Positions 2,460 through 20,756 of a DNA stretch of 42,861 nt are shown in pieces (positions within the stretch are counted from its first letter, which is position 1; the number at the start of each line of letters is the position of its first letter). The notes under the pieces are model-generated. The model did no database searches. It saw only the letters and a list, made by a program, of their open reading frames with translations, and was not told the DNA's origin. Location: IMG/VR virus record IMGVR_UViG_3300047319_000952, positions 1-42,861 of that record. One strand, written 5' to 3'. The position numbers were made by a program, and so were the translations under genes. This DNA comes from a virus.

Positions 2460-2716
2460 TGAATCCGACCATCCTGAGCCCGTGGTTCGTTGTCATTCGC
2501 TACGACAACGTCTACGCCGAGAACTCGAACGGGCAGCAGATTGCGTGGATACCTCAGTGGTACACCTCGCAGAACGGTGATGAACCACCGTGGTCGAAGG
2601 ACCGGAAGCACGCCATGATATTCAACTCGCTCCACTCGGCCCATCGTGTCGCGCAAGGGTGCGGTGGCTACGTCGTGGCCGTGTGTGACGAGGAGGACCA
2701 TGCCGAATACCGATGA
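2459..2716 (+). CDS. Hypothetical protein
   Basis: An 85-residue protein starting MNPTILSPWFVVIRYDN, an alternating polar/hydrophobic strand pattern suggesting a small alpha/beta fold. The start ATG overlaps the upstream stop. The 3' end overlaps the next gene by 17 bases, and the strong GAGGAGG ribosome-binding site of that next gene lies inside this coding region. No recognisable motif; function unknown. Confidence 0.7.
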   Translation: MNPTILSPWFVVIRYDNVYAENSNGQQIAWIPQWYTSQNGDEPPWSKDRKHAMIFNSLHSAHRVAQGCGGYVVAVCDEEDHAEYR

Positions 2717-3170
2717 CGGTCCTACGCCCAACGAGGCGTACGCACGTCTACGCCGGATGTTCGAGGGACACTTCACACCATACAAGCACAACGTACACAT
2801 CCCGTGGACGTACGCGACGGAGCGGATGCTACAGACCCCCGCTGAGAAGCGCACTGTCTACGGAGACTATCACCTCATACAAGGAGTTCTCATGCTCAAG
2901 CCGCACGGCCCGCGCTACCTCGTGAAGCGCATGGACCCGGAGCGCCCCACGTCTTCATCCATCATCATCCCCGACACCATCGACGGCGAGGGCTCGCTGT
3001 TCGCCCTCGTGCTCGCGGTCGGGACGCGCTGCCATGAAGACGTTGAAGTCGCCGACACCGTCGTGCTCCAGAAGTACGTGGGCGCACCGGTGAGCGTGGA
3101 CTTCGACGGCGAACACCTCGATGCACTCATCGTCATGGAAGACGACATTCTCGGCGTAGTGGAGGACTAA
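2700..3170 (+). CDS. GroES-like co-chaperonin with N-terminal extension
   Basis: Residues 65-156 match the GroES/Cpn10 fold: YLVKRMDPERP, the mobile-loop/IIIPDT segment, VADTVVLQKYVGAPVSVD and the C-terminal EDDILGVVE signature. Co-chaperonins cap GroEL, and phage versions (T4 gp31 is the classic case) adapt host GroEL to fold the capsid protein. The full frame from ATG 2700, which has a strong GAGGAGG ribosome-binding site, gives 156 residues, about 60 more than a normal GroES. The extension (residues 1-64) has no recognised domain. A second in-frame ATG at 2892, preceded by AAGGAG, would give a standard-length 92-residue GroES. Either or both products may be made. The stop overlaps the next start (TAATG). 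Confidence 0.85.
   Translation: MPNTDDGPTPNEAYARLRRMFEGHFTPYKHNVHIPWTYATERMLQTPAEKRTVYGDYHLIQGVLMLKPHGPRYLVKRMDPERPTSSSIIIPDTIDGEGSLFALVLAVGTRCHEDVEVADTVVLQKYVGAPVSVDFDGEHLDALIVMEDDILGVVED
2881..2886 (+). promoter_or_regulatory. Internal ribosome-binding site for short GroES form
   Basis: A perfect AAGGAG lies five bases upstream of ATG 2892, in frame within the extended GroES gene. It decides whether a 92-residue canonical GroES is produced in addition to, or instead of, the 156-residue form. Spacing is optimal for bacterial initiation. Confidence 0.65.
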
Positions 3171-3394
3171 TGAAGTCATTCTTCGTCATCATCGGCGTGC
3201 CGCTTCTTCTGGCCCTCGTGTCCGTGCTCATCCTCGTCTGCTACGGCATCGGTGGCATCGTGTTCTCGTGGTTCTGGAACTGGCTTGCGCCCGTAGTCGT
3301 AGCCACCGCACCACACCTCTCCGCGAATGGCGGCTTCGCCCTCGGCGTGTTGGTCGGTGCGTTCCAGTGGTTGCTCGCGAAGCGTGGCAAATGA
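3170..3394 (+). CDS. Small membrane protein, two transmembrane segments
   Basis: A 74-residue protein. Residues 4-36 form a long hydrophobic segment (VIIGVPLLLALVSVLILVCY and onwards), with a second at about 54-70, and a basic LLAKRGK tail. This is an inner-membrane protein with a short loop. It overlaps its neighbours by one and four bases. It could be holin-like by size and topology, but it is far from the endolysin gene and a holin candidate exists elsewhere (20346-20756), so I leave the function open. Confidence 0.7.
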   Translation: MKSFFVIIGVPLLLALVSVLILVCYGIGGIVFSWFWNWLAPVVVATAPHLSANGGFALGVLVGAFQWLLAKRGK

Positions 3395-3576
3395 CAAAAC
3401 GACCGAACTTCCACTCCGTGTGCATCTACTGGCACTGGCGCCTTGGACGATTCTCGTTCATGGTCTGGTGGCAGGGGAAGTTCCACTGGAACAAGTTCTT
3501 CTTCCGGCGTAGCGACGGCGGCTGGGTGTTGCACCCGCTGCCGGACGTGTCGCTGGTGTGGGAAGGAAAGGACTGA
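3391..3576 (+). CDS. Trp/Phe-rich small hypothetical protein
   Basis: A 61-residue protein whose ATG overlaps the upstream stop (ATGA). It is rich in aromatic and basic residues (WHWRLGRFSFMVWWQGKFHW). No signal peptide or family is recognised. It ends three bases before the nucleotidyltransferase start and carries that gene's GGAAAGG ribosome-binding site in its last codons. Confidence 0.65.
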   Translation: MTKRPNFHSVCIYWHWRLGRFSFMVWWQGKFHWNKFFFRRSDGGWVLHPLPDVSLVWEGKD

Positions 3577-3578
3577 GT

Positions 3579-4292
3579 ATGTTGAACATCGTCATCCCGA
3601 TGTGCGGGAACGGTCAGCGATTCAAGGATGCCGGCTATGAGGACCCGAAGCCGTGGATGCCCGCGCGGGGCAAGTCCATGATTCAGGCGGTCGTGGACAA
3701 CCTGTCCGGGTTCGTCGCGAATGAGGACGCGCGCTTCATCCTCATCACGCAGAACGGACTCACCGGAGACATCGACTTCGGTCCTCACGGGCACAAGGTG
3801 CTCGCCGTGGGTTCGACCGAGGGCGCTGTTGCAACTTTGCTGCACGCTAGTCTTCATGTGCTCACGAGTGAGGGGCTACTCATTGCGAACTGCGACCAGA
3901 TTGTGGACCTTGAGCCTAACGAGTGGGCGATGCCCCTCGGCATGGATGGCTCGCTGCTCACCTTCTGCGAGCCCTCGCGGAGCCGGGCGTGGTCGTACGT
4001 GGTGAAGTCCTCGAATGGTCACATCGCACGCATTGTCGAGAAGAAGCCCATCTCGTCCGAGGCGTGTGTCGGCATCTACTACTTCCGCCACTCTCACACC
4101 TTCATGGACACCGCGCTCAGAGTGGTGCAAGAGGAACGGCCGGCAGTGAACGGCGAATACTATACGTCACAAGTCATCCAGCGCATGGTGGATGAACGTG
4201 TGGACCTCGGCACGTTCGAGGTGGAGCGCGCCCGTGTGCACATGATTGGCACGCCCGAGCTACTGCGGAGCTACAATGACTGTGCTTTTTGA
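3579..4292 (+). CDS. Sugar-phosphate nucleotidyltransferase-like protein
   Basis: A 237-residue protein of the NTP_transferase fold. The N-terminal strand and nucleotide-binding loop read IVIPMCGNGQRF, followed by PKPWMPARGKSMIQ, the equivalent of the PKP/K substrate loop. A strand with the metal-binding Asp follows (LLIANCDQIVD), then IARIVEKKP and a VGIYYFR strand. Known members transfer NMP to sugar 1-phosphates, giving activated NDP-sugars for glycosyltransferases. It opens a run of sugar-related genes and overlaps the HAD phosphatase by 17 bases, so the two are probably made together. Which sugar is activated cannot be told. The start at 3579 (after GGAAAGG) is preferred over an in-frame upstream start. 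Confidence 0.8.
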   Translation: MLNIVIPMCGNGQRFKDAGYEDPKPWMPARGKSMIQAVVDNLSGFVANEDARFILITQNGLTGDIDFGPHGHKVLAVGSTEGAVATLLHASLHVLTSEGLLIANCDQIVDLEPNEWAMPLGMDGSLLTFCEPSRSRAWSYVVKSSNGHIARIVEKKPISSEACVGIYYFRHSHTFMDTALRVVQEERPAVNGEYYTSQVIQRMVDERVDLGTFEVERARVHMIGTPELLRSYNDCAF

Positions 4293-4869
4293 CCTCGACG
4301 GCGTCCTGTTCGAGAGCCGGGACATGCACTTCCGCACGCTGAATCAGGCGCTCGCGGAGCGCAACCTCCCGACCATCTCGGCCTACGACCACAGTCAGAC
4401 GTACAATGGGCGCCCGACGGCCGAGAAGTTACGGCTGCTGGGCATCCCCATTGCGGAGCAGGTTGCCGTGCGCGAGCGCAAGCAGGTGCTCACGCTCGAA
4501 TGGGTGTCGAAGCTGACGACGGATAGCCGACTGGTCGGCCTTTTCTCCGACCTCAAACGGCGTGACCACCTCATCGGCGTGTGCTCGAACTCGGTGCGTG
4601 CGACGACGGAGTCGGCTCTCAGGGCGCTGGGTCTTCGAGGGTTCTGCAACATCGTCCTCTCGAATCAGGACGTGGAGCGTCCGAAGCCACACCCGGAAAT
4701 CTACTGGCGGGCTATCATGGCCCTCGGCGCATGGCCTCGCGAGACGGTCATCGTTGAGGACAGCCTCGTGGGCCTTGCCGCGGCGGGCTATACGGGCGCC
4801 AATATCCTCGAAGTCGAAGGGCCAGAGGACGTTACGCTCGACGCCATCTTCAGGACGTTCGCGTCATGA
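4276..4869 (+). CDS. HAD-superfamily phosphatase/phosphomutase, beta-PGM-like
   Basis: A 197-residue HAD hydrolase with all core motifs: LFDLDGVLFES (nucleophile Asp, DxD), VCSNS (motif II), RPKPHPEIY (motif III Lys) and IVEDSLVGLAAA (motif IV). The helical cap between motifs I and II (about residues 20-85) is the small C1 cap of beta-phosphoglucomutase and related sugar-phosphate phosphatases. Next to a nucleotidyltransferase it probably prepares a sugar phosphate, either by dephosphorylation or by moving the phosphate to C1. Substrate unknown. It overlaps both neighbours (17 and 4 bases). Confidence 0.8.
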   Translation: MTVLFDLDGVLFESRDMHFRTLNQALAERNLPTISAYDHSQTYNGRPTAEKLRLLGIPIAEQVAVRERKQVLTLEWVSKLTTDSRLVGLFSDLKRRDHLIGVCSNSVRATTESALRALGLRGFCNIVLSNQDVERPKPHPEIYWRAIMALGAWPRETVIVEDSLVGLAAAGYTGANILEVEGPEDVTLDAIFRTFAS

Positions 4870-5081
4870 TTACGGTCTACGTTCCCGAGCCCGTGTTGGA
4901 GAAGATGCTCGCACAGTGGGAACCCGCAGCCAGAGCACAGATGCCGTGCTACCGCTTCGCCAAGTGCTGGGGCTGCGGACGCACGCTGTTCTTCGGCATG
5001 TGGCACATCTTCTTCCGACGCGACCAGCGCGAAGCACACCTCTGTCGGAAGTGCGGGCGCCCGTACGAGATTCAACTGTGA
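4866..5081 (+). CDS. Zinc-finger-like small protein
   Basis: A 71-residue protein with two Cys pairs, CWGC at about residue 34 and CRKC at about 60, separated by an aromatic FFGMWHIFF stretch. This is a treble-clef/zinc-ribbon-like arrangement. ATGA overlap upstream and GTGA overlap downstream place it inside the sugar operon. No family assigned. Confidence 0.65.
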   Translation: MITVYVPEPVLEKMLAQWEPAARAQMPCYRFAKCWGCGRTLFFGMWHIFFRRDQREAHLCRKCGRPYEIQL

Positions 5082-5808
5082 CCACCACCTACATCTTCCA
5101 CGTCATCGGGACGCTCACGATGGCCCACGTGGCGCTGGCGGCGGAGTCGATGGGGCGGCAGCGGTTTCGGTGGCAGAACCTCGTAGTGCACAACGCGAGC
5201 ACGCTACCACTCCAGCCTATCCTCGACCTGATGCCCGCGGGGCAGTTCGACAAGGTGCAGGTGCTCGACTACAACCCGAAAGACCCACCGACGTGCGCGC
5301 AAGACTGGTTCAAACAGATGCGGTACGTCTGCGGGACCGACCGCTACTTCTCACACAAGGCGGACTTCTATCTCGCCAACGGTGTGTGCGAGGCGTTCGA
5401 CTCGCTGCCCGAGGGCGACTGGTTCGTGCCGTTCCACAAGTACGACATGAAGTCCCGGGCGAGCATCGCGACGCTGCGTGAGTACGCGGCGCTGCCGTGG
5501 GAGGAAGGGCTCAAGCTGTCCACCACGGGCTCGTACCAGAAGCACCTCGGCAAGCTGGCCATCCCGTTCATGCAGACGCAGGGCGTGGACGGCACCATCC
5601 ACGGGTACACCGAAGCTGCGAGGGGCTGTACGCTCCGTCGCTGCTCGAACGCAACACGCGCTGGGGCGTGGCCGAATCGCTCCGCGACATGCAAGAGCAC
5701 ATCCCCTTCATCACCAACGACACGCGGTTCTTCGCCTGCCACATGTGGCACGAGAGCCCGGACCGCACTGACTGGAACAAGAACACTTCGCCGGAGGAAC
5801 GCTTCTAA
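5078..5808 (+). CDS. Putative glycosyltransferase-like protein, frameshifted
   Basis: From GTG 5078 the frame reads as protein to about 5615 (MTTTYIFHVIGTLTMAHVAL...; YFSHKADFYLANG; EGDWFVPFHKYDM). The coding signal then continues in the -1 frame (LYAPSLLERNTRWG to SPEERF) and stops at 5808, overlapping the next ATG. Adding one G to the GGGG run at 5622-5625 restores one reading frame of about 243 residues. The fragment up to the shift resembles proteins of phage glycosyltransferase clusters in size and context, but I see no convincing DxD motif, so the enzymatic call rests mostly on neighbours. The unshifted frame runs on to 5818 in a non-protein-like tail. Confidence 0.55.
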
Positions 5809-6542
5809 TGGCCCATGACCCGGAAGTCCAGAAGTACAGCATGATGCAGAAGGCGTACTACGCGAGCATCCCACCCATCGACTCGTCGATGAAGAACTCG
5901 GTGGTCGGCTGCTTCGACGAGCACGAGCGGTATCCGTACGAGGACTACCTGCTCGACAGGAATCCCGCGCGCAATCTCGCCCTCGACTTCGGCTGCGGTC
6001 CCGGCCGCATGATTCTTCGCATGGCGCCGCTGTTCGGCCGTGTGGATGGCGTGGACATTTCGCCGACGTGCATCGAGACCGCCGAGCGGTGGACTGCGGG
6101 TCTGCTGAACAAACCGAAGCTATACGTCAATGACGGAGTCACGCTTGAGGGCATCCCCTCGGAGACGTACGACTTCGTCTACTCGACCATCGCGTTCCAC
6201 CACATCAACTCGTACGTCATCCGCATGTCGCTGCTGCGCGAGTTCTTCCGCGTGCTGGCGCCGGGCGGGCGCATCTCCATCCAGATGTTCTACACGACGA
6301 CGGGCCGCACGCAATGGGCGCAGCACACGTCATGGCGCGAGAGCAAGCACGACGCCCCCTCGACCAATGGCTACTTTGACGTGCGCATCTCCCCGGACAA
6401 CCTCCCCGAGGTGATGGAGGACTTGAAGGCCATCGGCTTCGAGCAGCCGGAGAGCGTGCTCGCACCCTACCCGCCGCCGCCACACCCGCAAGGGCCGAGC
6501 GAGACGGACTGGATTTTCATCCACGCGGTGAAGCCGTGGTAG
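5808..6542 (+). CDS. Class I SAM-dependent methyltransferase
   Basis: A 244-residue protein with the Methyltransf_11/25 pattern: motif I ALDFGCGPGR (about residue 57), an acidic end of strand 2 in VDGVDISP, the post-II segment YDFVYSTIAFHHI, and a FFRVLAPGGRISIQMF strand. Methyltransferases of this type in glycan clusters often methylate sugar hydroxyls or carboxyls, but small molecules and proteins are equally possible. It sits between two glycosyltransferase-like genes with overlapping ends (one and seven bases), suggesting one pathway. Substrate not determined. Confidence 0.85.
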   Translation: MAHDPEVQKYSMMQKAYYASIPPIDSSMKNSVVGCFDEHERYPYEDYLLDRNPARNLALDFGCGPGRMILRMAPLFGRVDGVDISPTCIETAERWTAGLLNKPKLYVNDGVTLEGIPSETYDFVYSTIAFHHINSYVIRMSLLREFFRVLAPGGRISIQMFYTTTGRTQWAQHTSWRESKHDAPSTNGYFDVRISPDNLPEVMEDLKAIGFEQPESVLAPYPPPPHPQGPSETDWIFIHAVKPW

Positions 6543-7198
6543 ACCGGCTGCTCGTCGTAGCGACGAACAACGGGGACGACCGGGTTCGGCAGATTGTCGC
6601 TGCGACGGACACGCCGATTCTGGTGGTGGACACCAACCTCGAACGCGGTCCGCGCCCGGACGACATCCTCGACAAGCCGCACGTCGTGGGCTGGCTCCAG
6701 ACGCCGTACGGTGGGTACGACACGGGCGCTTACCTGTGGGCGTACTTCAACGTCGAAGCCGCGGAATACATGTTCATGCAGGACTCGTGCCTGCCGCGGT
6801 CCCGGGACTTCGTGGACACGTTCCACGACTACATGCCGGGGCCGATGGGCGTCGTGGCGTGGAACCTATTCTCGTTGACCATCTGGGATTCACCAGAGCA
6901 GCGCACCGCTGTGGACTTCACGATGGGTCAGGGCGCACCGTGGCCCGACAAGGGAATCTTCGGTCCCATCTTCTACACGTCGCGACTCGCGCTCGACCGA
7001 CTCGCTCGCAAGCGTCTGCTCCCGCCGTACGCGCTGCACAAGCAGGGCGCGCAGGGCATGGAGAGGGCATGGGCAATCGGGTTCCACCGCGCGGGCATCC
7101 CCGTCCGAGGGCTCACCGACACACACGAGCCTGACCGCGCGGCGATGGCAGCAGGTAGGCTCCCACTTCTCACGAAGTCGTTCGGAGGGCGTGCATGA
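6536..7198 (+). CDS. Glycosyltransferase-like protein
   Basis: A 220-residue protein from GTG 6536. The N-terminal LLVVATNNGDDRVRQIV and ILVVDTN strands and the segment GGYDTGAYLWAYFN followed by YMFMQDSCLP resemble GT-A-fold proteins, where an acidic pair after a hydrophobic strand binds the metal-nucleotide. Only QDS is present rather than a clean DxD. It is shorter than most GT2 enzymes. The position between the methyltransferase and a clear GT2 gene, with seven- and four-base overlaps, supports a glycan role. Confidence 0.6.
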   Translation: MVDRLLVVATNNGDDRVRQIVAATDTPILVVDTNLERGPRPDDILDKPHVVGWLQTPYGGYDTGAYLWAYFNVEAAEYMFMQDSCLPRSRDFVDTFHDYMPGPMGVVAWNLFSLTIWDSPEQRTAVDFTMGQGAPWPDKGIFGPIFYTSRLALDRLARKRLLPPYALHKQGAQGMERAWAIGFHRAGIPVRGLTDTHEPDRAAMAAGRLPLLTKSFGGRA

Positions 7199-8202
7199 AA
7201 TCACTTGGCATCATCATCTCGACGCCCGGCCGGCGCTCGCTGGCGAAGACACTCCAGAGCATCTTCTACCAGCGCGAGCCGGTAGAGGATGTGCTGGTCG
7301 TGGGCGACGGCTTCGACGCACCGACGAGTGAACTGGTGTCCTACTTCAAGGACATTGGTCTGCCCGCGCGCTACGTCGCGACGACGAAGACGCGGGACTG
7401 GGGGCACTCGCAAATCAACTACGGGCTCCAGCAAGTACGCGGTGACTACGTGACGTATCAGGATGACGACGACATCTACCTTCCTCGCGCCCTTGAGGAG
7501 ATGGCCCGGCTGGCTGAGAACCTCGACTCGCCCCGGCCTATCCTCGGGCGCGTGAAGACGCCAATCCTCGGTGTGCTCTGGCAGATGCCGGGGATACAGG
7601 CGTGCTTGGATGGTCACTGTCTCGTCGCACCGAACGACAAGCGCCGCCTCGGCTGGATGCTGCCACAGTACAACGGCGACCAGTGCCTTCTCCACACGAC
7701 CATTCGGAACTACCCCGAGTGTGCGTGGGCCGACCGCATCTGGACACTGACGCGCCCGAAGTGGACGCTCATGCCGTGGCGACAAGGGCACGGCCCCGCC
7801 GAGGGCGACCGCCCGGAGTGGTGGTCGTGGGACTTCTACCGAGACTCTGACCTCGTGCCATGCGCGAAGCTAGAGATGTGGAAGGACGAGCGCCACGACC
7901 TGATGCACGCGAAGCTGCTGGCGTGGGCGGCGAACATCACCGAAGATGAACTCGGCGACGTTGCGCAGTTCGTGGTGTACGCAGGGCAAGGTAACGACGT
8001 GTCGTTCACGTACACGCCCGGCGAGCGCATCTCGACGGTGCTTCCCATCTGGAACTACAAGGAGCACTCACACACAGACCAAACACATAGCTGGCCTCCC
8101 GACTTCTGGCCCCCGATTCCACCGTTCGATAGATTCCTTACCGAGGATGGGCAGGAGCTACTCGACTGGCGCGACGACGTGTGGGGAGGGAGAGCCGTAT
8201 GA
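7195..8202 (+). CDS. GT2-family glycosyltransferase
   Basis: A 335-residue protein with a GT-A nucleotide-sugar domain: N-terminal LGIIISTPGRRSLAKTLQSI, then VEDVLVVGDGFDA (uridine-binding acidic residue), and the metal-binding DxD motif in YVTYQDDDDIYLPRALEEM at about residue 98. The DxD places it in GT2. Residues 200-335 form an uncharacterised Trp-rich C-terminal region (EWWSWDFYRD) that might recognise the acceptor. It ends the sugar island; ATGA overlap with the next gene. Donor and acceptor unknown; virion protein, host surface glycan and DNA base are all possible. Confidence 0.85.
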   Translation: MKSLGIIISTPGRRSLAKTLQSIFYQREPVEDVLVVGDGFDAPTSELVSYFKDIGLPARYVATTKTRDWGHSQINYGLQQVRGDYVTYQDDDDIYLPRALEEMARLAENLDSPRPILGRVKTPILGVLWQMPGIQACLDGHCLVAPNDKRRLGWMLPQYNGDQCLLHTTIRNYPECAWADRIWTLTRPKWTLMPWRQGHGPAEGDRPEWWSWDFYRDSDLVPCAKLEMWKDERHDLMHAKLLAWAANITEDELGDVAQFVVYAGQGNDVSFTYTPGERISTVLPIWNYKEHSHTDQTHSWPPDFWPPIPPFDRFLTEDGQELLDWRDDVWGGRAV

Positions 8203-8471: not shown

Positions 8472-9456
8472 CGCCGCACAGGTGGCGATGGACAACCTGC
8501 TCAAGGTGGCGGGTGAGTCCGGCGCCGATGCCGTCGCGAAGTTGAAGGAGAAGTTGAAGGCGCTCAAGGCCCCCTCGGGCGTGCAGACCATGTCCGGCTC
8601 CGAGGCCGTGGATGTGCCCAAGGCGCTGACGGCCGAGGAACTTGGTGGTACGAAGGACGCTGCTGCGGCCCAGCCCGTGGCGGAGAAGTCGCTCACCGGT
8701 GACATGGTGGACTGGTCCGAGTACGACCTGAACTACAACGTGCGCCACCTGTACAAGAAGTCGGTCTACCGTGATACGCCGGAGGGACCGAAGTGGGTCA
8801 CGGTCATCCCGGACTTCCTGTCCCGGACCCGCGACTTCGGCAGCTTCGACAAGCAGGTGAAGGTGCCGGGCGGCCGCGCGGACGAGATGGAGTGGTTGAA
8901 CCTCGCGCAGTTCCTCAAGGACAAGGTGAACGGCCGGGAGCAGTGGCGTATCAGCGCCCTCATGCCCGCGGGAAGCCAGTGCGGCGTCCTGCTGGAGCGC
9001 GAGGTGCCGCTGATTCTGCCGGACCCGGTGCCGCTCAAGAAGTCCGAGGAAGTCGAAGTCCCGACGGCACCCGAGTTGAAGGCGGTCGAAGACGCGGCCC
9101 TCGCATACATGGAGAATGAGGGCTTGACACCAGTGGCTCCCGTGGTGCATGATACTCCCCCAGCCCCCATCGGTCTGCGCGGCATCGAGCGTGGGTCAGA
9201 CGAGGCGGAGGCCATCCGGGCGTCGTTGGAGGACAGCGGTGCGATTCAGGCTCGCGTGGGCGGCGGTGTTGCCCGGGCGATTCAGGTCGCGGCGCAAGAG
9301 ACGGTTGCGGCCCCCACCGAGGGTGTCATCCAGCCGGACGCCGAGTTCAATCCGCTCATTCAGGCGGCGGTGCCCTCGGCGGGCTACTCGGCGGCGCAGG
9401 ACATCCTGCGGGCGCTGACGGACCCGAACTTCCGGGCATCGCTGCCGCAGGAGTAA
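8446..9456 (+). CDS. Hypothetical phage protein with central folded domain
   Basis: A 336-residue protein from GTG 8446 (GGAGG at good spacing). Residues 1-85 are low-complexity Ala/Lys/Glu-rich. Residues 90-190 look folded (DWSEYDLNYNVRHLYKKSV, WVTVIPDFLSRTR, EWLNLAQFLKDKVNG). The rest is Pro/Ala-rich linker plus an Ala-rich C-terminus. I do not recognise the family. It sits between the sugar island and the replication module and is translated from its own strong site, so it may be abundant. Confidence 0.75.
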   Translation: MDETTNQSDAAQVAMDNLLKVAGESGADAVAKLKEKLKALKAPSGVQTMSGSEAVDVPKALTAEELGGTKDAAAAQPVAEKSLTGDMVDWSEYDLNYNVRHLYKKSVYRDTPEGPKWVTVIPDFLSRTRDFGSFDKQVKVPGGRADEMEWLNLAQFLKDKVNGREQWRISALMPAGSQCGVLLEREVPLILPDPVPLKKSEEVEVPTAPELKAVEDAALAYMENEGLTPVAPVVHDTPPAPIGLRGIERGSDEAEAIRASLEDSGAIQARVGGGVARAIQVAAQETVAAPTEGVIQPDAEFNPLIQAAVPSAGYSAAQDILRALTDPNFRASLPQE

Positions 9457-9458
9457 CC

Positions 9459-9758
9459 ATGACGCTCGTGACGCACATCGACTTCGTGGAGAGCAACTTC
9501 GGCTACGGCCCGCATCGTCTGTGGAATCGGCAGGCGCGGCAGGCGTGGCACACGTACTATGCGTGGAAGATGGAAGACCCGGGCATGGAGAGCATGGCCG
9601 GGTGTTGCGACACTGAGCCGGACGAGGATAGGAGCGAGGGGCTTCGGCCCCTCGTTCCATTGGAGGATAGATGGCAGCCAAGTACGAATCCTACGACGAC
9701 GGAGCCGCCAAGGCCACCATCGCCGGAGACCACTGGAGATTCCTCCGCTTCAAGCTAG
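9459..9758 (+). CDS. Small hypothetical protein
   Basis: The 99-residue frame starts at ATG 9459 just after the previous stop. Residues 1-60 read well (HIDFVESNFGYGPHRLWNRQ). The last 30 residues are Pro/Thr/Ser-rich, overlap the next gene by 88 bases and are doubtful. A UUCG-capped hairpin lies in its 3' part. The true end may be near 9616-9670 if a base is missing upstream. Function unknown. Confidence 0.55.
   Translation: MTLVTHIDFVESNFGYGPHRLWNRQARQAWHTYYAWKMEDPGMESMAGCCDTEPDEDRSEGLRPLVPLEDRWQPSTNPTTTEPPRPPSPETTGDSSASS
9635..9654 (+). other. UUCG tetraloop RNA hairpin
   Basis: A perfect 8-bp stem CGAGGGGC/GCCCCTCG closed by the extra-stable TTCG tetraloop. It is followed by only two Ts, so it is unlikely to be a full intrinsic terminator. 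It lies 16 bases before the ATG of the next gene and just ahead of its GGAGG site. A role in mRNA processing, stability or translational control is possible. Confidence 0.6.
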
Positions 9759-9880
9759 GCGCGCATGAACAGGTGGTCGCGGCCACTGGTGGCCACGGGA
9801 CCGCGGCGTTCGTCTCGCGCAACGAGCTACTCAAGGCCATCGACAAGTACGCGAAGTCGAAGGCCGTCCGCGGTGAGTAG
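9671..9880 (+). CDS. Small hypothetical protein
   Basis: A 69-residue protein starting at ATG 9671 with GGAGG upstream. It reads as a small alpha/beta protein (AKATIAGDHWRFLRFKLG, then an ELLKAIDKYAK helix). It overlaps the nuclease start by eight bases, so it is probably coupled to the replication/recombination genes. No family assigned. Confidence 0.7.
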   Translation: MAAKYESYDDGAAKATIAGDHWRFLRFKLGAHEQVVAATGGHGTAAFVSRNELLKAIDKYAKSKAVRGE

Positions 9881-10826
9881 CCCGTACGTTGTGAACGTGT
9901 CGTCGATTCAGGACTTCTACCAGTGCCGCTACCGGTGGTACTGCAAGTGGGTTCTGAACCGCGTGCCTCGCCATGAGGGGCCGGCGCTCGAAGCAGGGAA
10001 GCTGCTGCACCTCATCTTCGAGAAGCACTCTCGTGATGACATTCCGTTGAAGACGGCCGCAGTCCAAACGCTGTACCACTATCAGATATGGATGTGCGAA
10101 CTTCCAGTGAAATCGCCTGAGCGTGCGACGGCGCAAAGTGCGCTCGACACCATCATGAGTCTAATGGATGCGTTCCCGCTGTGGCAAGACGTGTTCCCGA
10201 TGGACATTACCACGCTGGAAGCGGAGGAGCCGTTCGAGATTTCGTTCCCTGAGATGCCGTGGGTTGTCTTCCGTGGGCGCCCCGACCGGGTGTGCCTGTC
10301 GGGGGGCGCGGTGTGGCACGTGCAGAATCGCGGCCTCGCGGCCTCGATGAACTTCGGTACGTACGCGTTGCTCGCGAAGCGTCACTACCACGAGCATCTG
10401 TACGCAGAGCATCTGAGTCGCAAGTACGCAGACCTCGGGGACTACGGCGGTACCATCTTCAACCTCGTCCGCAAGTTGAAGTTCAGAACGAACGTCGGCA
10501 AGAAGAACGAGAAGACGAAGACCGCGGCCGAGATGTTCTGGCAGATGCCGGTGGCCATCGCCCTCGGGGGACAGCAACACCGGGACGTGATGCGCTCGAT
10601 GTTCGACCACGTGCGAGACATGCAGACGGTCGAGAAGCGTGTGCGGGACTCGAAGGGGCTATGGCTTCCGCCGCCCAACGAGAAGATGAACGGTGGCTTC
10701 AACGGCAGCACGCCGGACCCGTACTTCCGCGTCCTCACGCGGGAGATTGACCTGATGGATGACGCCCACTTCAAGAACCGAGAGGACACGTATGCAGTCG
10801 CAGACGTTGACGCCGGACAGGACTGA
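9873..10826 (+). CDS. PD-(D/E)XK (RecB/Cas4-like) nuclease, atypical active site
   Basis: A 317-residue protein from GTG 9873. The N-terminus SSIQDFYQCRYRWYCKW followed by ALEAGKLLHLIFEKH is the PDDEXK_1 (AddB/RecB/Cas4-like) pattern, where the His of LLH...E is part of the active site. Next comes FRGRPDRVCLSGG, supplying the Asp, and VWHVQNRG where the (D/E)xK motif should be. There Gln and Arg replace the usual acidic residue and Lys, so activity is uncertain. Residues 170-317 contain a basic segment and an aromatic C-terminus. It precedes the primase with a 35-base overlap and probably processes DNA ends during recombination-dependent replication. Confidence 0.75.
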   Translation: MSSPYVVNVSSIQDFYQCRYRWYCKWVLNRVPRHEGPALEAGKLLHLIFEKHSRDDIPLKTAAVQTLYHYQIWMCELPVKSPERATAQSALDTIMSLMDAFPLWQDVFPMDITTLEAEEPFEISFPEMPWVVFRGRPDRVCLSGGAVWHVQNRGLAASMNFGTYALLAKRHYHEHLYAEHLSRKYADLGDYGGTIFNLVRKLKFRTNVGKKNEKTKTAAEMFWQMPVAIALGGQQHRDVMRSMFDHVRDMQTVEKRVRDSKGLWLPPPNEKMNGGFNGSTPDPYFRVLTREIDLMDDAHFKNREDTYAVADVDAGQD

Positions 10827-11772
10827 GATTCAGAAGTGCTGGTCGCTTCTGCCTCACCCGGACGGCAGCATCATCCGCGTGTTCGCTCGCAACCGAGTGA
10901 CCGGCGAGATGGACGGCGACTTCGCACGCAACGCAGACGAGATGTATCACTTCGCCGAGCGCAACGTGGACAAGCAGGTGTACGTGTGCCCCAACCCCGC
11001 GTCGAAGCGGGCGGGCACGCGGCACGGCGCCGAGGACGTGACACACTGGTCGTTCCTGTTGTTCGACATGGACCCCATCGAGGACGTGTACGACGCGGCG
11101 CCTGCCCTCGATGAGGCGCTGCTGTGGCTGGGCGAATGGGCGGGTCGGAACTTCTTCCAGCGCCGTCCCATCATCATCGACAGCGGCCGAGGGCGTCAGG
11201 CGTGGATTCGGCTGGACGACATTCTACTCGGTGGCGACCACGCTCCGGGCGGAGGGATGGACCGGAAAACGGCCCGCAAGACGATGGGTTACTGGCTCAC
11301 GCGGGTGTCGGACAAGGTCGGGCTCTCGCACGGCTGCAAGCTGGATACGTGCACGTCCGACTTGCCGCGGCCGATGCGGATGCCCGGCACGTTCAACCAG
11401 AAGACGCACCGCATGGCTCGCATCGTGGACGTGGGCGCCGGCAGCTTCGAGGGCTTCGCATCGCTGCTGGTGACGGGCACGCCTGACAAGGTGTTCATCG
11501 AGCCGGAGGTGCGGCCACTGGCCCCGGGTACGCCGTGGCAGAAGGTCGTGTCGAGTCTCACGCTCATGGCGAAGGACTACTTGAAGACCGGGCGCGAGGA
11601 ACCGGGTCGGCACAAGGCGATGTGGCACACGGCGAGGATGTTGCAGGAGCGAGGCATCGGCCGCGACGAGGCGCGCAAGGCGCTGCGTCAGGCCAACAGG
11701 CTCCGCGGTAAGTCACAGGAACTGTCCGCGGAAGAAGTCGAGCACGCGCTCGACACGGCATTCGGAGGGTGA
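10792..11772 (+). CDS. Archaeo-eukaryotic-type (AEP) primase with PriCT-like tail
   Basis: A 326-residue protein. The AEP hallmarks are the DxD metal motif in LLFDMDPIED (Asp92, Asp94), the SGRG...AW motif (IIIDSGRGRQAWIRLDD) and the downstream RPMRMPGTFNQKT motif with the catalytic basic residues. The last 75 residues (RHKAMWHTARMLQERGI...EVEHALDTAF) are a helical PriCT-like domain. It would make primers for the polymerase at 14384. No helicase is fused, consistent with the separate RepA-like ATPase at the left edge. The ATG at 10792 lies inside the nuclease gene; the stop overlaps the next start region. Confidence 0.85.
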   Translation: MQSQTLTPDRTEIQKCWSLLPHPDGSIIRVFARNRVTGEMDGDFARNADEMYHFAERNVDKQVYVCPNPASKRAGTRHGAEDVTHWSFLLFDMDPIEDVYDAAPALDEALLWLGEWAGRNFFQRRPIIIDSGRGRQAWIRLDDILLGGDHAPGGGMDRKTARKTMGYWLTRVSDKVGLSHGCKLDTCTSDLPRPMRMPGTFNQKTHRMARIVDVGAGSFEGFASLLVTGTPDKVFIEPEVRPLAPGTPWQKVVSSLTLMAKDYLKTGREEPGRHKAMWHTARMLQERGIGRDEARKALRQANRLRGKSQELSAEEVEHALDTAFGG

Positions 11773-11774
11773 GC

Positions 11775-12623
11775 ATGGCAACCGTTCAGAAACCGCTTCT
11801 CGAAGTCCTACAAGGTGGGCCGGCACCGGAGCACGTGATGGAACGTGTCATCGGCTATGGTCCTCCCGGCGTGGGTAAGACCCGATGGGGTCTGTCGCTG
11901 CCCGAGCGATTCGGCAAGATTGCGTACTTCGCGGCTGACAACAACAGTCACCTGCTGGCGTCAATCAGCCGCAAGAAGCGGGAGCGCATCTACGTGGTGC
12001 GGCCGGTCGGTGACAATCCGACGGCGACATTCATGGCGTTCTGTATGCGGGACTGGACCAAGGTGGACCCGGCAATCAAGACGCTCGTGGTGGACACGTT
12101 CAGCAAGGTGGGCTGGGACGCGCTCACGTGGTCGGCGAACACCGGCAGCGTGGACCGCGAGAAGCATTTCGTCGTCGGCACTCCCGGCGAGGGTGGTCAG
12201 GCAATCCCCAACCGTGGTGACTACCAAGGTCTGGACTCCGTGGGCAAGGGCTGGCTGGACATGCTCGCACAGCGGCAGGCCGACATGCACATCATCTTCC
12301 TGTGTCACGAGGAAGTGAAGGTCATCGACGGCTTCAAGGCGAAGGGCGGTCCGTCCTTCCCCGGCAGCAAGTTCACCGAGTACCTGCCCGGCCAGTTCAA
12401 CACGGTCATCAGGCTGGTGCGTGAGCAGCAACTCGTCAAGGGTGCCGACATGCCCGAGGACGTGGTCGTCGCCGTTGGTGAAGGTGACGGCAAGTACGTG
12501 GCGAAAGTTCGTACCGAAGACGAGACGCAGAAGAACGTCATGGCGCGCGTCGTGTGCAACCGCGACCCGCTCAACTGGTGGACCGCTTACGATGCCAGCC
12601 TCGGCATCAAGGAGAACAACTAA
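11775..12623 (+). CDS. Sak4-like RecA-fold ATPase (AAA_24)
   Basis: A 282-residue protein with Walker A GPPGVGKT (residues 29-36) and Walker B KTLVVDTFSKVG, then a conserved IIFLCHEEVK strand and a region typical of phage AAA_24/Sak4 proteins. Sak4 proteins are ATP-dependent single-strand annealing recombinases, usually encoded beside an ssDNA-binding protein, and that arrangement is seen here. The ATG at 11775 has GGAGGG at good spacing; an in-frame GTG at 11769 is an alternative start. Confidence 0.8.
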   Translation: MATVQKPLLEVLQGGPAPEHVMERVIGYGPPGVGKTRWGLSLPERFGKIAYFAADNNSHLLASISRKKRERIYVVRPVGDNPTATFMAFCMRDWTKVDPAIKTLVVDTFSKVGWDALTWSANTGSVDREKHFVVGTPGEGGQAIPNRGDYQGLDSVGKGWLDMLAQRQADMHIIFLCHEEVKVIDGFKAKGGPSFPGSKFTEYLPGQFNTVIRLVREQQLVKGADMPEDVVVAVGEGDGKYVAKVRTEDETQKNVMARVVCNRDPLNWWTAYDASLGIKENN

Positions 12624-19282: not shown

Positions 19283-19534
19283 ATGAAACACCGGGTCGTA
19301 CCGAACACCGTCTCAAAGCGGTTCCGGCGCAAGCTGCGTCGAGCGCGCGCGCCGTACCTGTTGTGGCTGCAATGCAAGCGGCCACACGTGTACGCGCGTC
19401 TGCGGCGGTTGTGGAAGGCGCGGCTGTTGGAGATGATTTGCTCCGTCAGTCCTATCGACACACCACTGTTCTCACTCGCACCCATCTACACGCACATCCA
19501 TTGGAGAACCGATGCGCAAGCTGTTGGTGATTGA
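19283..19534 (+). CDS. Basic small hypothetical protein
   Basis: An 83-residue protein, very basic in its first half (SKRFRRKLRRARAPY, RLRRLWKARLLE), suggesting nucleic-acid binding or a membrane-surface role. The last 8 codons overlap the exonuclease gene. There is no strong ribosome-binding site, so it is probably coupled to the 34-residue gene before it. Confidence 0.55.
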   Translation: MKHRVVPNTVSKRFRRKLRRARAPYLLWLQCKRPHVYARLRRLWKARLLEMICSVSPIDTPLFSLAPIYTHIHWRTDAQAVGD

Positions 19535-20066
19535 CACCGAGACTGGCGGACTGGACGCCTCGAAGCACGCCATCATCTCGCTCGCCGCGGTGGTCTATAA
19601 CGACGGGCCGGAGGCCACGTTCCATAGGTACATCAAGGACGCAGAGGGCCTGACCACGGAAGAAGCGTTCAGGACGAACCAGATTCCGTCGCTCGTCGTA
19701 CACGAGGAAGGCAAGGACCCGTGGACAGTGGTGCAGGAACTACACTACTTTCTCGCGAAGAACCAGATGGACGTGCGAATCACGCTCGCGGGCCACAACC
19801 TGCCCTTCGACATTGCCTTCCTCCAGCGCCTATACCGGCTGGCGGGCGAGGACTACGACAAGGTGTATCACCACGGTGGGCTCGACACGAAGTCGGCGGC
19901 GCTGGTGTTCGAGCAGGCGGCGCTGTTCTTCCCACGGTCCTCGTCCCTCGTGGACGTGGCGCCTGCCTTCGGCGTGACAGTGAAGAAAGCGCACGATGCG
20001 CTGGCTGACGCATACGCGACGGCGCAGGTGTTGGAGAAGATGATAACGCGACTGCGTCGCAGCTAG
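19512..20066 (+). CDS. DnaQ-like DEDDh 3'-5' exonuclease
   Basis: A 184-residue protein with exo I VIDTETGGLD (Asp8, Glu10), exo II AGHNLPFDIAFL and exo III AHDALADAYATA (His and Asp), i.e. the DEDDh set of DnaQ/epsilon-type exonucleases. GGAG precedes the ATG. It may proofread, trim recombination ends or degrade RNA. The polymerase already carries its own exonuclease domain, so a separate role is likely. It is the last protein gene of the rightward unit. Confidence 0.85.
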   Translation: MRKLLVIDTETGGLDASKHAIISLAAVVYNDGPEATFHRYIKDAEGLTTEEAFRTNQIPSLVVHEEGKDPWTVVQELHYFLAKNQMDVRITLAGHNLPFDIAFLQRLYRLAGEDYDKVYHHGGLDTKSAALVFEQAALFFPRSSSLVDVAPAFGVTVKKAHDALADAYATAQVLEKMITRLRRS

Positions 20067-20087: not shown

Positions 20088-20188
20088 CCGAGGTGGGTGG
20101 TGCCGCGGCATCGGGTCCCAATGTCCGGGCAAGTGTACACGGACCTACGCGAGTACAGCGCGTGATAACTGTGCAGCCGATACCTCGG
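20088..20188 (+). other. Structured non-coding region upstream of tRNA-like RNA
   Basis: No convincing gene lies between 20067 and 20300. This part has a 7-bp long-range helix CCGAGGT (20088-20094) with ACCTCGG (20182-20188) enclosing smaller hairpins: GTCCG/CGGAC (20123-20127, 20140-20144) and ACGCG/CGCGT with a seven-base loop (20147-20151, 20159-20163). The closing helix shares two bases with the acceptor stem of the following tRNA-like fold, so the two could compete. Confidence 0.4.
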
Positions 20189-20292
20189 AGCGGCGGAAGC
20201 AGGCTAACGGCGTGCCTGCCCTGTCCAGAGGGATAGTCGGAGGCGCTGGAACGACGCCCCGGCCATTGCGGTTCGACTCCGCCCCCGCTCCA
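20187..20292 (+). ncRNA. tRNA-like RNA with five-arm fold, non-canonical anticodon loop
   Basis: A perfect 7-bp acceptor-like stem GGAGCGG/CCGCTCC (20187-20193, 20285-20291) encloses a T-arm with the consensus loop TTCGACT (20272-20278) on a GCGG/CCGC stem. There is also a 6-bp D-like arm GCAGGC/GCCTGC (20199-20204, 20214-20219) and a long variable-type arm (about 20138-20161). At the anticodon position only a weak stem with a six-base loop CAGAGG or GTCCAG can be drawn, without U33. At 106 bases it is longer than a normal tRNA. It is either a degenerate tRNA or a tRNA mimic. I could not assign an anticodon. Confidence 0.45.
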
Positions 20293-20303
20293 CGCAAACG
20301 CAA

Positions 20304-20338
20304 AAACCCCCCGAGGCCATGACGGCTTCGGGGGGTTT
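20304..20338. terminator. Bidirectional intrinsic terminator between convergent units
   Basis: A 15-bp stem (AAACCCCCCGAGGCC with its complement, one G-T) closed by the loop ATGAC. An A tract before it gives a U tract for - strand transcripts, and TTTCGTGTTTTC follows for + strand transcripts. It sits exactly between the last rightward element and the leftward holin gene, so it would stop both transcription units. Confidence 0.9.
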
Positions 20339-20345
20339 CGTGTTT

Positions 20346-20756
20346 TCAGTGGTTGCCTTGCGCGCCCTGCAACTTCTCAACGGTGCGCATACCGCCGAGC
20401 CCGAGCATACTGATGACGAGCGTGGACAACAGCGTAGTGTCCAGCACGACCATCGGGACCGGGTGCCCCGCAAGGCCGCTAATCTGCACGGCAATCGGAG
20501 CGACTACAAGCTGCACCGCAAGCGCGCCACCGCAGACCCAGCCGATGAACGGCCGCCAGCCAGCGATGAACATGTTCGGGGACGCAGCTTCTACTGCGTT
20601 GATACGGGTCTGCTGCTCCATCGTGGCGAGGTCACCGGTCTGCTGCATCTCCAACAGCTTCTGCGTCGCCGCGGCTTTGGCCTGCGGGTCGGGGATGAGC
20701 TTGTCGATGAGTGCCTTGCCAACATCAAGCAATGAACTCAGTGGGTCTAGTGCCAT
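20346..20756 (-). CDS. Holin, three-transmembrane GTA type
   Basis: A 136-residue protein resembling the 3TM holin family first described from gene transfer agents (GTA_holin_3TM). An N-terminal soluble part contains KLIPDPQAKAAATQKLLEM, then EAASPNMFIAGWRPFIGWVC, and hydrophobic segments at about 62-82, 88-105 and 104-122. It would permeabilise the inner membrane and let the endolysin (17792-18280, + strand) reach the cell wall. It is the last gene of the leftward unit, next to the terminator. Its ATG overlaps the stop of the upstream gene. Confidence 0.8.
   Translation of the reverse strand: MALDPLSSLLDVGKALIDKLIPDPQAKAAATQKLLEMQQTGDLATMEQQTRINAVEAASPNMFIAGWRPFIGWVCGGALAVQLVVAPIAVQISGLAGHPVPMVVLDTTLLSTLVISMLGLGGMRTVEKLQGAQGNH

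Follow-up and report, generated by a model that had tools for sequence, protein, structure and literature searches.

The stretch of DNA analysed here (the window) is a 42.9-kb record, IMGVR_UViG_3300047319_000952, which based on its gene content belongs to a tailed phage. Its rightward unit includes DNA polymerase, lysozyme and exonuclease genes, and its leftward unit holin, SU10-type capsid, adaptor and portal genes. These two transcription units converge between 20066 and 20346, and in that gap, on the + strand, lies a tRNA-like element (Table 1). Elsewhere on the + strand, a GroES-like (Cpn10) gene (2646-3170) and a run of nucleotidyltransferase-like, HAD hydrolase, methyltransferase and glycosyltransferase genes (3558-8200) are found.

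Table 1. Positions of the tRNA-like element, its predicted parts and the surrounding features in the window
Feature	Position	Strand	Basis or remark
Exonuclease gene, phrog_192	19512..20066	+	left synteny marker
tRNA-like RNA, whole element, G1 to position-73 base, 106 nt	20187..20292	+	sequence reading; homologs L102:7142-7247, L094:7652-7757
Acceptor stem, 5' strand GGAGCGG, then bulged C 20194	20187..20193	+	perfect pairing with CCGCTCC
GG, pairing possible with CC 20283-20284	20195..20196	+	MFE fold; invariant in all three sequences
D-like arm, 6-bp stem GCAGGC/GCCTGC (20199-20204/20214-20219), 9-nt loop	20199..20219	+	three-sequence alignment
Pseudoknot stem 1, 5' strand TCCAG, at anticodon-arm site	20224..20228	+	2/5 pairs covary
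Pseudoknot loop 1, AGGGATA (AGAGATA in homologs), 7 nt	20229..20235	+	sequence comparison
Pseudoknot stem 2 (variable arm), 5' strand GTCGG-A-GGCG	20236..20245	+	3/9 pairs covary
Pseudoknot stem 1, 3' strand CTGGA, within variable-arm loop	20246..20250	+	covariation
Pseudoknot stem 2, 3' strand CGCC-CCGGC	20255..20263	+	covariation
T arm, stem GCGG/CCGC (4 bp, not 5), loop TTCGACT	20268..20282	+	L094 stem CCGG/CCGG
Acceptor stem, 3' strand CCGCTCC	20285..20291	+	A at 20292 is the position-73 site; CCA not encoded after 20292
Intrinsic terminator hairpin, 15 bp, between convergent units	20304..20338		terminator-like hairpin also in L102 and L094
Holin gene, phrog_3427, convergent	20346..20756	-	right synteny marker

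Two canonical tRNA features are present in the element, namely a 7-bp acceptor stem and a TTCRANY T loop. The perfect acceptor stem, the consensus T-arm loop, the 6-bp D-like arm and the long variable arm reported in a preliminary description of this DNA could all be confirmed. Acceptor and T stem together stack to 7+2+4 = 13 bp (9/4) with a bulged C. The pairs G1-C72 and G2-C71 occur in 3/3 elements (the one in the window and its two homologs, see below), with A, A and U at position 73. Over the 42.9 kb, a descriptor for acceptor plus T arm has a single site, namely this element; on first-order Markov shuffles it finds a mean of 0.025 sites, with one site in 5 of 200 shuffles. The folding energy is mildly better than that of shuffles (z -2.2 for the window element, -1.2 and -0.9 for the homologs) and is therefore insufficient to carry the case. 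While energy alone is weak, the comparative evidence, drawn from the aligned sequences, is decisive.

The preliminary description had also considered a larger RNA that would include the foldable segment at 20088-20188. Its closing helix CCGAGGT/ACCTCGG (20088-20094/20182-20188) indeed overlaps the acceptor stem by two bases. Yet blastn found no homolog of the segment in any fetched locus, it folds no better than shuffles (z -1.0), and unrelated sequence stands in its place upstream of both homologs. Judged by this comparison, the segment is not part of the conserved RNA unit, and the larger RNA was discarded.

Related loci were collected by means of the exonuclease. The window protein as a lone query retrieved none; the exonucleases of the window and of loci L006, L007 and L017 were aligned and then used to fetch 80 loci. 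Homologs of the element were located by reading the gap 3' of the exonuclease and by a fuzzy pattern scan. Two true homologs were found, on a 32-kb contig (L102) and a 64-kb contig (L094) from different metagenomes, with blastn E-values of 3e-30 and 1.5e-21, respectively, in a search space of the fetched loci only. They are 85% (L102) and 79% (L094) identical to the window element (pairwise set 85/79/81%), whereas the DNA identity of neighbouring genes is 52-74% (41-61% at third codon positions) and that of the exonuclease adjoining the element 52-54%. The element is thus the best-conserved stretch among those compared in the region, and since its identity exceeds that of the neighbouring genes and of their third codon positions, the RNA itself is under selection. 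The element and the polymerase agree in grouping the window with L102.

The order exonuclease-RNA-terminator-holin is common to the window, L102 and L094, the other genes of the records are syntenic, and a terminator-like hairpin is also present 3' of the element in both homologs. In the window and L102, the element lies directly before this terminator, at the transcript end. In L094 it is located inside a tRNA island, between a tRNA-Tyr and a His-like tRNA, and two further tRNA-like genes separate it from the terminator. Many relatives hold other RNAs in the same gap and do not carry the element, which is therefore not essential to the clade.

Model R1 was built from the three members, which makes its E-values for them circular, and these were not counted as evidence. 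Over 86 loci and 79 virus records it identified no further credible member; weak matches in L003 (21 bits) and G002 (14.5 bits) were taken as chance. The pattern CCAGAGNGATAGTCGGAG matched 12 times in about 85,000 genomes, which is roughly the chance expectation, and none of these matches has an adjoining T arm. A viral scan with a wider gap returned the two known homologs and otherwise tRNA genes and chance matches, and blastn against phage and plasmid collections gave short chance matches and nothing more. So far, the RNA family consists of three members: window, L102 and L094.

In an unbiased enumeration, every helix of at least 4 bp kept by the three sequences was considered; the third acceptor pair was not counted, as the homologs carry a bulged A. 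Just four helices covary: the end of the variable arm (3 pairs), NNCAG/CTGNN (2 pairs), the acceptor (1 pair) and the T stem (1 pair). In the alignment, no helix other than the first two, the pseudoknot stems, reaches two covarying pairs; these stems have five between them. Of column-shuffled alignments, 6% contain a helix with two covarying pairs, and a helix with three occurs in none. In the three sequences, stem 1 reads TCCAG/CTGGA, ACCAG/CTGGT and TACAG/CTGTA, and the end of stem 2 GGCG/CGCC, GACG/CGTC and GCAC/GTGC. NNCAG at the anticodon-arm site pairs with CTGNN in the variable-arm loop as an H-type pseudoknot. Its stem 1 has 5 bp, its loop 1 has 7 nt (AGRGATA) and its stem 2 has 9 bp with one bulge; stem 2 directly adjoins the 3' strand of stem 1, with no base in between, and the last loop spans 3-4 nt. 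Loops of this size seem compatible with a classical H-type fold.

In the remaining parts, the acceptor has A-U/U-A/C-G at pair 3 and G-C/A-U/A-U at pair 6 in window/L102/L094, the acceptors of L102 and L094 contain one bulged A, and the D-like arm combines an invariant stem with a variable loop. Covariance analysis, as proposed in the preliminary description, supports the acceptor, the T stem and both pseudoknot stems: of the 30 pairs in the consensus structure, 90 of 90 cells are paired and 7 pairs have changed on both sides, in an alignment of three sequences in which each pair has undergone few independent events. None of 500 shuffles matches the score of that structure, and sliding the partners destroys it. 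Neither result named in the preliminary description as refuting its reading, a canonical tRNA model with an anticodon or lost pairing in homologous sequences, was obtained.

A conserved 5-bp anticodon stem with a 7-nt loop and U33 was not found across the three elements. The short anticodon arm with a six-base loop that had been described does occur in the window, as a CCCT-GTCCAG-AGGG hairpin, but this CCCT/AGGG pairing breaks in both homologs and the region forms a strand of the pseudoknot. The anticodon stem UGUCC/GGAUA of the MFE fold breaks in the homologs as well. As read from the alignment, the three-member family keeps the acceptor, T and D arms and the long variable arm, and an H-type pseudoknot replaces the anticodon arm. 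As a possible alternative fold, AGTCGGA in the variable arm (20235-20241) is complementary over seven bases to the T loop TTCGACT (20272-20278); this complementarity is invariant in window, L102 and L094 and so carries no covariation signal.

Searches against known RNA families gave no canonical tRNA call. ARAGORN reported no tRNA and no tmRNA in the window, Rfam at curated cut-offs had no match for the element, and RF00005 did not match the window even at an E-value of 10, while the same model matched 14 of 14 control genomes. The element resembles tRNASec (RF01852) in its 13-bp acceptor/T branch (9+4), 6-bp D stem and long variable arm (tRNASec features from PMC7609411 and PMC9976931). In contrast to tRNASec, it has no anticodon arm with UCA, a D loop of 9 instead of 4 nt, A/A/U instead of G at position 73, a bulged C (and A) in the acceptor, and a pseudoknot. 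Full-length matches to this model are weak, 10-13 bits (12.1, 12.7 and 10.4 in the three elements) against a cut-off of 47.

With type II tRNASer, the element shares a long variable arm, which starts with ATAGTCGG as in one phage tRNASer (L233), and the pairs G1-C72 and G2-C71, which are typical of bacterial tRNASer (PMC9976931). It differs in the lost anticodon arm, the 9/4 rather than 7/5 arrangement, the 6-bp D stem and the missing G73, which SerRS favours. Among the 142 tRNAs of the fetched loci, tRNASer is the top isotype by pairwise similarity to the element; as the best-scoring tRNASer had been fetched through a pattern that it has in common with the element, descent from tRNASer is a lead only. 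Perhaps the element derives from a Ser-like tRNA.

In tmRNA, a tRNA-like part that lacks an anticodon is joined to other structure (PMC3985003, PMC2481249). The element and tmRNA share the tRNA-like acceptor and T arm without an anticodon and the link to a pseudoknot. At 106 nt, the element has a real D stem and a single pseudoknot in the variable arm, and neither a tmRNA model match nor a tag-encoding frame was found in it. Virus-encoded tRNA mimics with a pseudoknot have already been described in plant RNA viruses, namely the tRNA-like structures of TYMV and BMV, of which that of BMV has no anticodon (PMC9976931). There, the structure forms the 3' end of an RNA genome and its pseudoknot belongs to the acceptor arm, whereas the element is a gene of a DNA phage with a continuous acceptor stem and its pseudoknot in the anticodon/variable region; the Tymo_tRNA-like model scores 13.2 bits on it against a cut-off of 40. 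Allo-tRNAs (8/4, 9/3) also combine an unusual acceptor/T split with a long variable arm. Their acceptor branch has 12 bp and, being used as amber suppressors, they decode (PMC7590224), unlike the element with its 13 bp and no anticodon.

The element is, on balance, probably a maintained, non-decoding tRNA mimic of some kind that works in trans. A mimic was among the readings of the preliminary description and agrees with the missing tRNA model match and with the acceptor, T and D parts conserved in two homologs. Since these two relatives keep the fold through matching mutations, the element looks like a working molecule and not a broken tRNA, and with no anticodon arm it should not read codons. 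Transcription of the rightward replication genes would yield the RNA at the transcript's end; host tRNA-processing enzymes would release it, as they would its tRNA neighbours in L094, and a host enzyme would add CCA. The tRNA-shaped acceptor and elbow might subsequently act in trans on a host tRNA-binding protein, and SerRS or LeuRS could charge the RNA despite the missing anticodon as a step of the same scheme. Counting against a mimic, the tRNA-Tyr and tRNA-Pro beside the L094 copy encode CCA and the element does not, and the A, A and U at position 73 count against serylation.

Phages are known to be rescued by their tRNAs from tRNA-cleaving defences, some of which cut in the variable loop (PMC11555353, PMC13096335). 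A tRNA-shaped RNA in which the anticodon is absent and the variable arm locked would suit as a decoy for tRNA-cleaving enzymes. We tentatively suggest that the element may represent a class of phage RNA that is new: a tRNA mimic whose variable arm is tied by a pseudoknot to the former anticodon strand, and which occupies, or is charged by, host tRNA enzymes without decoding, e.g. as a decoy against tRNA-cleaving defences. Its most likely role, though a doubtful one, would be to act as a decoy for a host factor that targets tRNAs, for instance a defence nuclease that cleaves them, or to compete for such a factor.

An unlikely alternative is a processing or stability element, in which the tRNA-like fold serves to be cut by RNase P/RNase Z and thereby defines the 3' terminus of the mRNA of the replication genes, or serves as a spacer in the tRNA island, and the released RNA has no target. 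RNase P reads the acceptor and T arm, both of which the fold retains, and the location directly before the terminator at the transcript end in the window and L102 would fit. However, with two more tRNA-like genes before the terminator in L094 the element is not always the 3' end, and RNase P cleavage does not need an elaborate conserved pseudoknot.

It is quite improbable that the element is a charged non-decoding tRNA that donates an amino acid or binds the ribosome in the manner of tmRNA. Serine identity does not involve the anticodon, minimal A73 variants can be leucylated (PMC9976931), and tmRNA sets a precedent for a tRNA-like part of this kind. Against this, there is no tmRNA match or tag frame, CCA is not encoded, position 73 is A73/A73/U73, and no transferase or SmpB-like gene was found among the phage proteins scanned.

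As no anticodon arm is conserved, a decoding function is very unlikely, and we give little credence to a divergent elongator tRNA (type II, Ser- or Sec-like) that still decodes with an anticodon arm merely hard to recognise. The tRNASec-like branch, D stem and variable arm, the weak full-length tRNA-Sec scores, the top similarity to tRNASer genes (with a top match pre-selected by pattern) and the L094 copy inside a tRNA island would fit such a tRNA. Yet a 5-bp/7-nt anticodon arm is not conserved, both candidate stems break in the homologs, the strands needed for it covary as a pseudoknot instead, RF00005 has no match at E-values up to 10, and the tRNA-Sec scores are far under 47 bits. A decayed tRNA gene, a remnant with no function as the preliminary description had considered, would explain the missing tRNA model match, the lost anticodon arm and the other RNAs in the same gap of many related phages, but is hardly credible for the best-conserved stretch compared in the region, with a perfect acceptor stem in the window and compensatory changes in the acceptor, T and pseudoknot stems.

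Pseudoknots are found in the tRNA mimics of plant RNA viruses and in tmRNA. To our knowledge, no tRNA mimic of a DNA phage is known in which a pseudoknot replaces the anticodon arm; none was found in Rfam or in the literature searched. If the element is trans-acting, the content of phage tRNA islands would not be limited to spare tRNAs for decoding, and this bears on why phages carry tRNA-like genes at all, which is an open question. Because standard tRNA and Rfam searches miss the element, more such RNAs may hide in annotated islands.

Other RNAs were observed in the fetched loci. Five related phages carry tRNA-His(GTG)-like genes whose T loop is aberrant (TGCGANT or TGTGAGT) and whose D arm is odd, at about 7766-7838 in L094, about 6953-7026 in L102 and in the islands of L097, L100 and L101; these genes are missed by ARAGORN and Rfam. 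A 93-nt tRNA-like RNA at L017:3418-3510 (-) has an extra hairpin, two T-arm-like hairpins (GCAGGTTCGATTCCTGC, GCGGTTCGATTCCGC) and an encoded CCA, and scores 23.9 bits with the tRNA-Sec model. A recurring non-coding stretch with a GCGCGAGC-CGTCGA core and the end TAGAGCCCGACCA adjoins tRNA-like genes in three phages (L102, about 7025-7130; L098, about 3340-3455; L017, reverse complement, about 2250-2400) and has no Rfam match. A lone T-arm RNA, AGAGGTGTGGGTTCGANTCCCACCACTGGG, is shared by two groups of phages, in which it lies at the same exonuclease/holin junction or close to it: it occurs in L006 (reverse complement, about 6529-6580) and L088, and in L089 and L091-L093 directly before the terminator, with weak partial RF00005 matches only. 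In L007/L106, the gap before the holin terminator at the same junction contains a stretch closed by GGGTTGAC/GTCAACCC, without a T arm. A further record fetched through the exonuclease, L104, carries a dense island of 28 tRNA genes at 8796-12504 (-).
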